This document shows positions 11,943 to 15,602 of a stretch of 64,000 nucleotides of DNA, in pieces (the stretch's first letter is position 1; each line of letters opens with the position of its first letter). The stretch covers positions 1-64,000 of the forward strand of contig JAFQTT010000013.1 of assembly GCA_017408885.1 (NCBI GenBank), given 5' to 3'. The translations under genes were made by a program, and so were the position numbers. Source of the DNA: Methanocorpusculum sp. Its GTDB lineage: Archaea; Halobacteriota; Methanomicrobia; Methanomicrobiales; Methanocorpusculaceae. Under the pieces are notes generated by a model, which was not told the DNA's origin, searched no databases, and saw only the letters and a program-made list of their open reading frames with translations.

Positions 11943-11976
11943 GATTATATTTATTGAAACACTTACATTATGTAAG
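11943..11976 (+). promoter_or_regulatory. Promoter and CTTAC-N5-GTAAG operator of the HSR1-like gene
   Basis: A TATA-like TTATATTTAT (11945-11954) is followed 8 bases later by the palindrome CTTAC-ATTAT-GTAAG (11962-11976). The expected start of transcription, about 25 bases after the TATA box, falls in the right half of the palindrome, so a bound repressor would block initiation. The same arrangement precedes hsp20 at 15549-15580. This supports autoregulation by the adjacent regulator. Confidence 0.72.
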
Positions 11977-11989
11977 CAGGTAATTAAAC

Positions 11990-12649
11990 ATGTTTGAACA
12001 GGAACATATAGCCCAGCTTCTCGATATCCTGGGAAACCGTAACCGGAGGCGTATTATTGAGCTCCTGCGGTATAAGCCATGTTTTGTTACTGAAATTTCA
12101 GACCGTCTTTTACTTAATCCAAAGGCAGTCATTGAGCATCTGGCTCTCATGCAGAAGGAAGATGTGGTATCTTTCTATCAGGATGAGAAACGCAGAAAAT
12201 ACTATTATTTAATTCAGGACTTCAGGCTGTCTGTTGAGATGCAGCCGAAAGATGAACCGGCAGAAGCTGTTTCTGTTGTTCCTAATGAGACTGAGGATGC
12301 AGAACAAGCTCTTCCTCTTATTGACAAGATAGTTCAGATCCGCTTCCTCCTGGATGCAAGAGAAAAACTTATCGAGCACTTGGAGGCAGTCGAGAGTGAT
12401 ATTGACAATAAGATGGAAGAGATTATGGAAGGCGGACGCGATGTGCTCAACAATAATATTGAGGCTGAGATTCTTATCTCTTTAATTTATGCACCGCTTA
12501 CTCCAATCGAGATTGCAGACAGCATTGGTCGAAGTATTCCTGATGTGACTGCTGCCCTTCGCTCTCTTATATCCCAGGGTTATCTTGAAACAAACTCCGG
12601 CAGATACTCACTTGTTGTTCCAAAGAAGCAGGCGGTAAAGGCTCAGTAA
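11990..12649 (+). CDS. ArsR-like winged-helix regulator, HSR1 (heat-shock) type
   Basis: A 219-residue transcription factor with two winged-helix units: an ArsR-type domain at about 5-75 (LLDILGNRNRRRIIELL, then EISDRLLLNPKAVIEHLALM, wing EKRRKYYYL) and a second at about 158-213 (PIEIADSIGRSIPDVTAAL), joined by an acidic linker and a helix likely to dimerise. Layout and first domain resemble HSR1 of Archaeoglobus fulgidus, a heat-shock repressor reported to bind CTAAC-N5-GTTAG. A near-identical palindrome lies in this gene's promoter and in that of hsp20. Repression relieved by heat is inferred. The stop overlaps the next ATG by one base. Confidence 0.82.
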   Translation: MFEQEHIAQLLDILGNRNRRRIIELLRYKPCFVTEISDRLLLNPKAVIEHLALMQKEDVVSFYQDEKRRKYYYLIQDFRLSVEMQPKDEPAEAVSVVPNETEDAEQALPLIDKIVQIRFLLDAREKLIEHLEAVESDIDNKMEEIMEGGRDVLNNNIEAEILISLIYAPLTPIEIADSIGRSIPDVTAALRSLISQGYLETNSGRYSLVVPKKQAVKAQ

Positions 12650-13071
12650 TGGAAGCAATTGAGATTATCCACTGCCGCGGACATGAAAATGTCCTTGGAC
12701 TTCACAAAAGTACTTTTGAGATTACAAAAGAGAGTGAACTATCACCTCAGGGAGACTGCATCATTGGTGTTGCCGCAGACAAAGGTGCGGCTGATTTATC
12801 TAAAGAATTTCGTGAGCTCATGGCAAAAGAGGGAGCACGCCTCACTGCTGTATTTTCAGCAGGAGGAGTTGAGGCGGTTGTAACCTCTGATGGGTGCCCG
12901 GGGATTTCCTTAACACATCCAACTGATCTGGTCTGGCGCAGGAGTTCTTTTGTGTGCCCGAGAACAATTGGCATCTATTCAGATGCAACAGCAGCTCTTC
13001 TTCCGCGTGAGTTAATCGAGGTCTTAAAAACCGGTGCTGAGATGACAGTAACGCTGAAGGTTGAGGTTTAA
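12649..13071 (+). CDS. DUF371 domain protein
   Basis: A 140-residue protein spanning the whole archaeal DUF371 family. Recognisable blocks are HCRGHENVLGLHKSTFEIT at the start, DCIIGVAADKGAADL in the middle and HPTDLVWRRSSFVCPRT towards the end, followed by a beta-rich C terminus (MTVTLKVEV). No membrane span or known catalytic motif is visible and the function is unknown. It is coupled to the HSR1-like regulator by a TAATG overlap, so it probably belongs to the same stress-responsive operon; this link comes from position only. Confidence 0.85.
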   Translation: MEAIEIIHCRGHENVLGLHKSTFEITKESELSPQGDCIIGVAADKGAADLSKEFRELMAKEGARLTAVFSAGGVEAVVTSDGCPGISLTHPTDLVWRRSSFVCPRTIGIYSDATAALLPRELIEVLKTGAEMTVTLKVEV

Positions 13072-13108
13072 GAGGAATAGTTTAAGTCAAACTGTCATTT
13101 TTGGACAG

Positions 13109-13447
13109 TTATGATTTATCTTTAAGAATATCTGTTACAGATTTATAGAGTTTGGGGACATCTGTTACTGCAATCTGCCAGACGGTTCTAATATCTATAC
13201 CGCGATATCCGTGTACAAGTTTATCTCTCGTTTTTGCAAGAAGACTAATTGGTATTCCGGGATGAGTTTCTTTAAACTCTTCTGACAACTGTTTTGCCGC
13301 TTCACCTATGATAATTATTGAAAGTATGATTCCATTCTGGTATATCCTGCGGTTGGAAAATTCTTCATAGGTAATGTTTGATGTTTCTTCAATGATATCA
13401 GCACACTGATCTCTGATATCTTTGAGATAGAGGACATCATCTTTCAT
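13109..13447 (-). CDS. hepT: HepT-like HEPN ribonuclease toxin
   Basis: A 112-residue HEPN-domain protein of the HepT/DUF86 group. The catalytic R-X4-H-X-Y motif is intact as RDKLVHGY near residues 75-82, so RNA cleavage is expected. It overlaps the upstream nucleotidyltransferase gene by 4 bases, the standard MntA-HepT order, in which the antitoxin silences the toxin by adding AMP near the catalytic Tyr. The pair lies between DUF371 and deoxyhypusine synthase. Toxin activity is inferred from the family. Confidence 0.88.
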   Translation of the reverse strand: MKDDVLYLKDIRDQCADIIEETSNITYEEFSNRRIYQNGIILSIIIIGEAAKQLSEEFKETHPGIPISLLAKTRDKLVHGYRGIDIRTVWQIAVTDVPKLYKSVTDILKDKS

Positions 13448-13773
13448 GCCTCAGCTTTTCCTCCGCCAAACAAAATCATGTCCTTCTCTATATATGGACG
13501 AAGGTTTGGATTCATAAACTCAAGGGAGACAAAATCAATCTCTCGTCCAAGCAGTTTTTCAAGATACTCTGCCGCACCTGCATAATCATGCAGGCTGCCT
13601 CTGTTTTCCTGAAAAACATAGAGGATATCAATGTCTGAATTTTCCGTATCCTCACCGCGTGAGACGGAACCAAATATACCAACACTATCAATACCGAACC
13701 GGCTTTGCAGTACCGGCAGGTGCTCCTCCAGTTTTTTTATTGCATCTTCTTTGATGCTGGTATATTGGTTCAT
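13444..13773 (-). CDS. mntA: MntA-like nucleotidyltransferase antitoxin
   Basis: A 109-residue minimal nucleotidyltransferase. The GSX10DXD active site is intact (GSVSRGEDTENSDIDIL near residues 35-51). In the characterised MntA-HepT system this enzyme transfers AMP groups to a Tyr of the HEPN toxin and neutralises it. It is the first gene of the pair and overlaps hepT by ATGA. A TATA-like stretch with ATATAAGC lies just upstream on this strand (about 13784-13792). Identification is good from motif, size and partner. Confidence 0.88.
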   Translation of the reverse strand: MNQYTSIKEDAIKKLEEHLPVLQSRFGIDSVGIFGSVSRGEDTENSDIDILYVFQENRGSLHDYAGAAEYLEKLLGREIDFVSLEFMNPNLRPYIEKDMILFGGGKAEA

Positions 13774-13824
13774 ATTCGTATGCTTATATGTGTCAGATTT
13801 GGTAATAGTTTTTTCTCTCAGAAT

Positions 13825-14787
13825 TTACGCCCGCTTCACACCGGATGCGATAAGAGCAGACGTTACAATCGGCAGAGCAATTGTGATATCGCAGAAGCAC
13901 TGTAATTTCCGCGACTCCGGACGTTCCTTACCCCAGCTGATTCCCTCCTCAAAGGTACAGCCTGAAAGACCACCCCAGTGCGGAGCATCAGTTGTGTACT
14001 GAAGCGCAAACTCGTGTCCGCCTAAATAGTGGTCATGATACTTTGGAAAGATTACTTCGGTCTGCTGGATGAAGTTCTTAGGCGTTCCCCCTCCAAGGTA
14101 AATAACACCGCTCTGCTCTCCAAGTTCCACAAACTCAGACAGCTCATCTGCATCAGCCACCTGATCAATAACAAGTTCTGCCCCCTTTCTTCTCGCTGCA
14201 ACAAGTCCGATTCCAATCGATGAATCAGACAGTGCCGGAACATGAATTGGAACTCCCATCTTAGCACATGTACCAAGAATGCTTCTGCCCTGCGGATACT
14301 CCTCATTTATCCTCTCGCCAACCAGCTTTAAGAAAGCACGAGAAGACATTGTTTGTTTACCAAGTTCCATACCAAATGCCAAAACCCAGTTCTCCATATT
14401 GCAGATCTCCTTGTCCGAGGCAAACACATCATAGATTCTGTTCACTCCGCTGTTGAAAAGTGCAGCATCATCTGCTAAATGCGTTCCCTTGTAATGTTTA
14501 ATGCCTGCATGTTCGCAGAGGTCGTGGAACATATTTGCGCCTGTTGAGACAATGCAGTCTACAAAACGGTTTTCAACGAGCTGAATAATACATTCCTGCA
14601 TACCGGCAGGAACAATCGCTCCGGACAGGCCAATAATTATTCTGATTCCCGGAGTTTCAATCATCTCCTTCCAGATCTGAAAACTCTCTCCAAGCTTTCT
14701 TCCCTGGAATCCCGAACTGCTCATATTTTCCAGAAGCTTATCCACAGAAGCCTCAGGCTTCATAGGATTTGTAGGAGTATCAAACAT
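13825..14787 (-). CDS. Deoxyhypusine synthase
   Basis: A 320-residue deoxyhypusine synthase family protein, which uses spermidine and NAD to modify a Lys of translation factor aIF5A. Family blocks include GLSGAIVPAGM, VDCIVSTGANMFHD, GKQTMSSRAFLKL, IYLGGGTPKNFIQQ and GISWGKERP. The SWGK Lys corresponds to the catalytic Lys of eukaryotic enzymes, so this copy should be active, though family members can instead make homospermidine-type products. A TATA-like CTATTTAG near 14811-14818 fits a nearly leaderless transcript. Confidence 0.88.
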   Translation of the reverse strand: MFDTPTNPMKPEASVDKLLENMSSSGFQGRKLGESFQIWKEMIETPGIRIIIGLSGAIVPAGMQECIIQLVENRFVDCIVSTGANMFHDLCEHAGIKHYKGTHLADDAALFNSGVNRIYDVFASDKEICNMENWVLAFGMELGKQTMSSRAFLKLVGERINEEYPQGRSILGTCAKMGVPIHVPALSDSSIGIGLVAARRKGAELVIDQVADADELSEFVELGEQSGVIYLGGGTPKNFIQQTEVIFPKYHDHYLGGHEFALQYTTDAPHWGGLSGCTFEEGISWGKERPESRKLQCFCDITIALPIVTSALIASGVKRA

Positions 14788-14848
14788 AGTATTAGATTGC
14801 GCAGGACTACGCTAAATAGCTGTTCGTTTGAATAAAAAAAGTATTGGA

Positions 14849-15481
14849 TTATGAAATCTGCAGGTATCCTGCAAATCTCATCTCAATCTCGTCAGTGCCG
14901 TACTGAAGGGTGAGTTCTTTGTCGTTGATTTCGATGATGACGCCGGTTCTGACCGCGTATGCGAGTTCTCCGAGGTCATCGATGTATGGGAAGTCTAACT
15001 GAAGCATTCCGCCTTTTTCGAGCTTTTCGAAGTCAAGTCCCATCTCTTCGACATCTTCTTTGGAGTAGGTGTACTTTAAGGCAGAGCCGTCAAGCGCAAT
15101 CTTTCTTGTCTCTCCCTGATTCATTCCGATAACTTCAGTGGAGATTGCATTCTGTTCTTCTGCATAGACCATATATGGCTTTTCAGAGTTCTCGATTGGG
15201 ATGTATGCACTCTGGTTGGTCTCGTATCCTGCGATGAATCCGCCGACTGTTGCAAAGACAGCTTTACCGTCAATGTACATAGTATATTCAACAGCAACCG
15301 GGTTTCCTGCTTCGGCTGCTCCGGAAGCTCCTCCTCCTCCGAAGAAGTTCTGGAAGTTTGCGAATGAGAGAACGCACATAACAACCATTAAGACACAGAA
15401 GGCAATGACTCCAATCTGCATCCAGTTGATTTTTTTCTCCTCCGGTTTATCACCGGCGTTTGACTTTTTCTGTACAGCCAT
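14849..15481 (-). CDS. Membrane-anchored FKBP-type peptidyl-prolyl isomerase
   Basis: A 210-residue protein with one N-terminal membrane anchor (about residues 20-41) and an outward-facing FKBP-like domain: VAVEYTMYIDGKAVFATV, then an inserted flap region, MNQGETRKIAL, and a C-terminal beta strand pair resembling the IF-domain type seen in archaeal FKBPs. It is expected to help fold extracytoplasmic proteins. The frame is open to 15601, but I choose the Met at 15481 since the extra 40 residues look like promoter DNA. It is divergent from hsp20, so the CTTAC-N5-GTAAG site between them could influence both. Confidence 0.78.
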   Translation of the reverse strand: MAVQKKSNAGDKPEEKKINWMQIGVIAFCVLMVVMCVLSFANFQNFFGGGGASGAAEAGNPVAVEYTMYIDGKAVFATVGGFIAGYETNQSAYIPIENSEKPYMVYAEEQNAISTEVIGMNQGETRKIALDGSALKYTYSKEDVEEMGLDFEKLEKGGMLQLDFPYIDDLGELAYAVRTGVIIEINDKELTLQYGTDEIEMRFAGYLQIS

Positions 15482-15548
15482 GTGTGTATATAATTTATTT
15501 TTCTTATCATAAACACCTTCCCTTCCGTATTTTGCCGCCATGAGAAAA

Positions 15549-15580
15549 CATATATACAAATGACACTTACTATATGTAAG
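15549..15580 (+). promoter_or_regulatory. Promoter and CTTAC-N5-GTAAG operator of hsp20
   Basis: A TATA-like CATATATAC (15549-15557) precedes the palindrome CTTAC-TATAT-GTAAG (15566-15580; it extends to ACTTAC...GTAAGT). Spacing between TATA box and palindrome is 8-9 bases, as at the HSR1-like gene, and the palindrome covers the predicted transcription start. Two occurrences of the same 10 fixed bases with the same geometry support a shared repressor. Confidence 0.75.
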
Positions 15581-15602
15581 TCTTAGAAGACTAAATACCA
15601 TA

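Follow-up and report, generated by a model that had tools for sequence, protein, structure and literature searches.

Operator palindromes at the regulator and hsp20 promoters

The window, that is, the whole stretch of 64,000 nucleotides (nt) analyzed here from Methanocorpusculum sp. (contig JAFQTT010000013.1, positions 1 to 64,000), carries a gene for an HSR1/Phr-like regulator and, farther downstream, the small heat-shock protein gene hsp20. The palindrome CTTAC-N5-GTAAG occurs exactly at two positions of the window, as CTTACATTATGTAAG upstream of the regulator gene and as CTTACTATATGTAAG upstream of hsp20 (Table 1). The initial annotation had reported both palindromes at 8 to 9 bases past a TATA box; both are exact, and the measured distance is 9 nt at each promoter. 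Because of this TATA-to-site distance, operator 1 is predicted to span the transcription start of the regulator gene. The annotated reading frames of a double winged-helix regulator and of hsp20 were likewise correct, and the hsp20 product also matches NF041799 (4.7e-16), under the cut-off of that model. When one mismatch is allowed, the window contains 5 sites against 1.06 expected, and none of 100 shuffles reached 5. The regulon had been described as having two promoters; instead, it is predicted to include no fewer than three promoters of protein genes, those of the regulator, hsp20, and cdc48. By eye, hairpins comparable to the inverted repeat just 3' of operator 2 come after the operator in the hsp20 leaders of several relatives; in loci of other genera (L177-L183, L192, and L193), a hairpin with differing stems lies between the operator and the Shine-Dalgarno sequence of hsp20 and seems to be recurrent.

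Table 1. Positions of the regulator, its predicted operators, and associated features (window coordinates unless a contig is named)
Feature	Coordinates	Strand	Basis or remark
TATA-like box of the regulator promoter, TTATATTT	11945..11952	+	Ends 9 nt before operator 1
Operator 1, CTTACATTATGTAAG	11962..11976	.	Exact match; conserved in genus and order
HSR1/Phr-like regulator, 219 amino acids	11990..12649	+	Open reading frame, profile and structure comparison
DUF371 gene	12649..13071	+	PF04027, 5.5e-49
TATA-like box of the hsp20 promoter, CATATATA	15549..15556	+	Ends 9 nt before operator 2
Operator 2 (hsp20 promoter), CTTACTATATGTAAG	15566..15580	.	Exact match; conserved in genus
Inverted repeat GTCT-TAGA-AGAC, just 3' of operator 2	15580..15591	+	By eye
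hsp20 (small heat-shock protein), 161 amino acids	15603..16088	+	PF00011, 9.1e-13
Probable non-coding RNA	C7:123111-123340 (L001:1501-1735)		Multiple hairpins, an ACCTCC stretch, and a run of T close to the end

Conservation of the operator and a predicted third target, cdc48

A match to the regulator was found in 96 of the 100 genomes searched, the matches in G084 and G023 being very weak and a fragment, respectively, and G088 having a second, weak match. The 25 genomes of group g1 served as the genus set and were taken to be Methanocorpusculum on the basis of the same regulator matches. The regulator is also present on five contigs of Methanocorpusculum metagenome-assembled genomes, four of which come from gut samples of cattle, buffalo, goat, or deer. 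Conservation was scored as at most one mismatch to CTWAC-N5-GTWAG, at regulator loci within 70 nt upstream, with the expectation taken from base shuffles. By this measure, a site lies upstream of the regulator in 56 of 66 loci, where 0.42 would be expected, and upstream of hsp20 in 21 of 22 genus loci, where fewer than 0.5 would be expected. In other genera, hsp20 has the site in 15 of 20 and 7 of 18 loci, second copies included; since 8 of these 38 loci were picked for a known exact site, the unselected figure is 14 of 30.

Allowing one mismatch in the window's own genome added 29 sites, among which CTTACCTAAAGTAAA on contig C7 lies 24 nt upstream of a CDC48-type AAA+ gene and 9 nt past a TATA-like box. 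Related cdc48 genes have the site in 37 of 48 loci against 0.39 expected, a 49th locus being too short for scoring, while the second cdc48 copy, on contig C1, has no operator site. The cdc48 gene is a predicted target that was absent from the initial annotation. The test set beforehand, namely, that the motif should stand upstream of stress genes in this genome or its relatives, gave a positive outcome: the site is conserved at the regulator, hsp20, and cdc48 promoters, and its HSR1 form is found in sister genera.

An operator shift and residue 43 of the regulator

The 25 genus genomes contain no exact CTAAC-N5-GTTAG, the operator form of HSR1, against 14 occurrences of the reversed control, and in other genera of the order this form is present exactly at the regulator and hsp20 promoters. 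T and A occupy the two variable positions in every one of the 59 genus sites that deviate by no more than one mismatch (regulator, 22; hsp20, 21; cdc48, 16). A CTAAC-type left half predominates in the other genera, with 31 of the 34 sites at the regulator and 19 of the 21 at cdc48, and the right half there is frequently GTAA; it is therefore mainly the left half that changed at the regulator and cdc48 promoters, and both halves at hsp20.

Residue 43 directly precedes the recognition helix (residues 44 to 56). All 24 genus sequences compared have Asn at this position, whereas 39 of the 40 sequences from elsewhere have Ser. The lone Asn43 outside the genus in this comparison is that of G063 (genus g18), and Asn43 is also present in the related genomes G078 and G097. 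At the regulator promoters of these three genomes, G097 has CTTACTTTAGGTAAA, and the sites of G063 (TTTACTTTTGGTAAA, with two mismatches) and G078 (TTTATTTTTGGTAAA, identified by eye) are weaker; their hsp20 promoters showed no site. CTTAC-type sites also occur with Ser43 regulators in two genomes, G098 and G073, so the link between residue 43 and the operator is a correlation with exceptions. The two groups of regulators differ at further positions too, among them 52, 55, 56, 59, and 67. The co-occurrence of Asn43, beside the predicted recognition helix, with CTTAC-type sites appears to be new.

The regulator protein and known systems

The predicted fold of the regulator consists of a winged helix (residues 1 to 74), a poorly predicted linker (80 to 106), a long helix (109 to 152), and a second winged helix (156 to 208). 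The N-terminal winged helix is ArsR-like and related to that of Phr, as expected for HSR1/Phr (arCOG01684).

In the accessible text of PMC9133787, HSR1 is described as an autoregulated repressor with the operator CTAAC-N5-GTTAG, encoded in an operon with hsp20; the same text gives only two archaeal heat-shock regulators as identified and the mechanism of HSR1 as little known. It also states that Phr binds over the hsp20 start site and controls its own gene, through a site of 29 bp with the elements TTTA, TGGTAA, and AAAA. The regulator, hsp20, and cdc48 constitute the gene set named for HSR1/Phr in the available part of PMC5852551. Of the operator strings tried in a literature search, none was found except CTAAC-N5-GTTAG, in one review.

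So far as these partial sources describe them, the genus system resembles HSR1 of Archaeoglobus fulgidus in the operator before the regulator's own gene, in the N5-spaced palindrome, and in hsp20 and cdc48 as targets (here predicted from sites), and sister genera carry the identical CTAAC-N5-GTTAG at the regulator and hsp20. It differs in two respects: CTTAC-N5-GTAAG takes the place of the exact HSR1 operator, and each of the three genes is a transcription unit of its own, whereas HSR1 shares an operon with hsp20. Phr of Pyrococcus furiosus is similar in its N-terminal winged helix and in binding over the hsp20 start and controlling its own gene (here predicted from sites), but the 29-bp Phr site is not this palindrome, and the Phr regulon is described as wider. 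The HSR1 gene set in the genus, together with the HSR1 operator in sister genera only, argues for a regulon of a known kind, the HSR1/Phr type, with a shifted operator.

A probable non-coding RNA behind a fourth promoter

The third exact site of the window's own genome, at C7:123111, has a TATA-like box 6 to 7 nt before it, and the combination of promoter and operator at this locus is firm. No open reading frame conserved among the loci was found in the roughly 200 nt that follow the site. A stretch of 226 nt after it folds better than all 200 of 200 dinucleotide shuffles (z, -3.5), and a non-coding RNA downstream of this fourth operator is probable. The unit of promoter, operator, and probable RNA is present in 16 of the 25 genus genomes, with nine exact operators, six that are CTTACTATTAGTAAT or carry one further change, and one that is degenerate (G007). 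Its neighbors in the G015 and G008 clades and in G009 are a gene of the metallo-beta-lactamase fold and/or a TrkA-like gene (the latter identified by eye); in the window's clade, the unit is placed elsewhere, next to a PNPOx gene or a uvrB-like gene (also by eye).

Within the window's clade, hairpins are swapped wholesale between fixed flanking unpaired stretches (four loci, by eye). In the other two clades, both sides have changed in at least one sequence at 11 of the 60 and 7 of the 34 predicted pairs, but the RNAalifold covariation terms are near zero (-0.2 and +1), and five of the six sequences of the G008 clade have no folding advantage over base shuffles (z, -0.9 to +0.7). A single RNA family for all clades was rejected: a covariance model, R1, built from six loci (G001, G004, G005, G008, G018, and G019), recovers those loci and, convincingly, no other clade or genus, and RNA homology between clades is unproven. 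Rfam searches of 6 RNA loci gave only noise below threshold, and no tRNA was found in 9 loci. A literature search, judged by titles and abstract openings, returned no work pointing to such an RNA, and a probable RNA behind this promoter and operator in 16 of 25 genus genomes looks new.

The function of the RNA can only be guessed at. One quite speculative proposal, which we hold to be possible and somewhat short of probable, is that an HSR1-type repressor directly controls a fast-evolving structured RNA together with the chaperones, that unpaired ACCUCC-like stretches of the RNA pair with Shine-Dalgarno sequences and thereby tune translation under heat stress, and that the repressor and its operators switched together, from Ser43 to Asn and from CTAAC to CTTAC.

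Neighboring genes and other palindromes

The initial annotation had identified a DUF371 gene co-transcribed with the regulator and had suggested that both it and a divergent FKBP gene belong to the regulon. The identity of DUF371 stands, and because its start overlaps the regulator stop in TAATG, co-transcription is probable, but the adjacency holds in some species only (8 of 30 loci tested, each extending at most about 1.5 kb beyond the gene). Searches of Pfam, NCBIfam, and PDB sequences gave the FKBP label no support, and the gene was dropped as a target; operator 2 is 84 nt off if its start is at 15481, and a longer frame is open to 15601. Between the DUF371 and deoxyhypusine synthase genes, the minus strand (13109 to 13773) encodes a HepT-like protein and a nucleotidyltransferase, a pair that looks like a HEPN/MNT toxin-antitoxin system.

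In all 22 genus loci of DUF7123 genes, a CTTAC-like palindrome (at most one mismatch) is located roughly 20 nt upstream of the start codon. The palindrome overlaps the Shine-Dalgarno sequence and is farther from the TATA box, and in eight loci of the sister genus, the best matches carry at least two mismatches; the DUF7123 genes were provisionally left outside the regulon. An inverted repeat such as CTTACRTGAGGTAAG covers the Shine-Dalgarno sequence (C4:35681-35964, equal to L114:1501-1784, and L304-L325), and an mRNA hairpin that hides it, acting as an RNA thermometer, is possible. A one-mismatch site in a divergent promoter between a class I tRNA synthetase gene and a beta-lactamase-fold gene (L245) and a site at a TPR gene (L241) were rejected for differing geometry or distance. 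Intergenic look-alikes (L109, L239, L049, and L050; TATACTTA...TAAGTATA) were set aside and are probably a repeated element. In family f5, 11 of the 12 loci viewed have a site like CTAACANNNTGTTAG upstream of a gene for a small membrane protein, which was taken as another system; palindromes of this kind occur in L197-L206 and L214, followed in L204 and L214 by a gene resembling those of XRE-type regulators.

Proposed mechanism and alternative explanations

Given these sites, their geometry and conservation, the gene set, and the predicted fold, the product of 11990-12649 is very probably the genus counterpart of the HSR1/Phr repressor, bound to its operator at growth temperature and released by heat. 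At growth temperature, a regulator dimer would occupy CTTAC-N5-GTAAG, 9 nt past the TATA box and over the start site, and would block RNA polymerase at the regulator gene, at hsp20, and at one of the two cdc48 genes, and probably also at the non-coding RNA gene. Upon heat shock, the regulator would let go, the blocked units would be expressed, and autoregulation would bring repression back.

Several results weigh against this interpretation, and some of them are those that would be expected if the two palindromes had arisen by chance or as generic hairpins. Exact CTTAC-N5-GTAAG is no commoner than the reversed control in the window's own genome of 1.55 Mb (3 sites and 4), the 32 sites seen with one mismatch allowed compare with 56 in the control, the 68 exact sites in 24 of the 25 genus genomes are hardly enriched over 57, and outside the genus, 55 exact CTAAC-N5-GTTAG sites in 38 genomes compare with 71. 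Sorted by coordinates and context, the 68 genus sites comprise 15 at the regulator, 12 at hsp20, 9 at the RNA locus, 2 at cdc48, 18 at DUF7123 (one of them at a contig end and assigned by neighborhood), and 12 outside every nameable class, and of the 55 CTAAC-N5-GTTAG sites, 10 are placed by coordinates at the regulator and 15 at hsp20; in family f5, an exact CTAAC-N5-GTTAG of another kind stands before an unrelated gene. The genome-wide search proposed in the initial annotation did find an AAA+ gene, cdc48, but it yielded no enrichment and no thermosome gene among the open reading frames examined beside exact and one-mismatch sites, thermosome genes themselves not having been looked up, and the thermosome seems not to be part of the regulon. 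A site with at most one mismatch is missing from 10 of 66 regulator loci (in L166 and L168, it is visible by eye and cut off by the chosen start codon), from 11 of 48 cdc48 loci, and from 16 of 38 hsp20 loci of other genera, second copies included; five genus loci of one clade (L284-L287 and L296) lack it at cdc48, and G022 and G024 lack it at both the regulator and cdc48 promoters. Whole-genome enrichment thus fails as proof, and the evidence is therefore position and phylogenetic conservation. The recurrence of the site at orthologous promoters, at a fixed place past the TATA box and far above the shuffled expectation, agrees with the original argument against coincidence and makes chance or a generic hairpin extremely improbable.

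The protein comparisons also include points that do not favor a heat-responsive repressor. The regulator scores 59.9 bits with the NCBIfam Phr model NF053602 (kind "exception"), below the curated cut-off of 320, and the best Foldseek match is the sulfur/redox regulator SurR (PF0095, Pyrococcus furiosus; 5.7e-8), before Phr (1.3e-6), with an alignment of about 210 columns that covers nearly the whole chain. The same regulon and operator could then respond to redox or another stress rather than to heat, in keeping with this SurR-like layout, with the match to the SurR model NF047699 (2.2e-7, under its cut-off), and with a Cys31 that is invariant in 52 of 52 sequences of one set and 64 of 64 of another. 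A CxxC pair in the N-terminal winged helix of SurR serves as a redox switch, but at the aligned place, Cys31 alone is conserved here. The sequence of the regulator is nearer to Phr than to SurR, and the predicted targets hsp20 and cdc48 are the HSR1/Phr set in the portion of PMC5852551 cited above, so that a redox signal is unlikely. SurR is not among the 50 VIA-align rows listed, which the N-terminal domain dominates. Binding of the operator by another transcription factor has in its favor that the pairing of regulator and operator is here predicted from sequence and that Ser43 proteins occur with CTTAC-type sites in G098 and G073, which means that regulator and operator types are not one to one. 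It is less probable still, as the site precedes the regulator gene itself, as the HSR1 precedent in the available text of PMC9133787 points to the regulator, and as Asn43 goes together with CTTAC-type sites, both in the genus and, with less clarity, in g18.

If the HSR1/Phr-type interpretation is correct, the joint switch of a repressor and all its operators would be an observable shift of a whole small regulon, a natural change of specificity usable for studying the co-evolution of protein and DNA. The RNA locus would provide an archaeal RNA as a candidate for heat regulation, together with a clear hypothesis for its transcriptional control. HSR1 would move from a single-species case to a regulon with a core of regulator, hsp20, and cdc48 that can be traced across a methanogen order.

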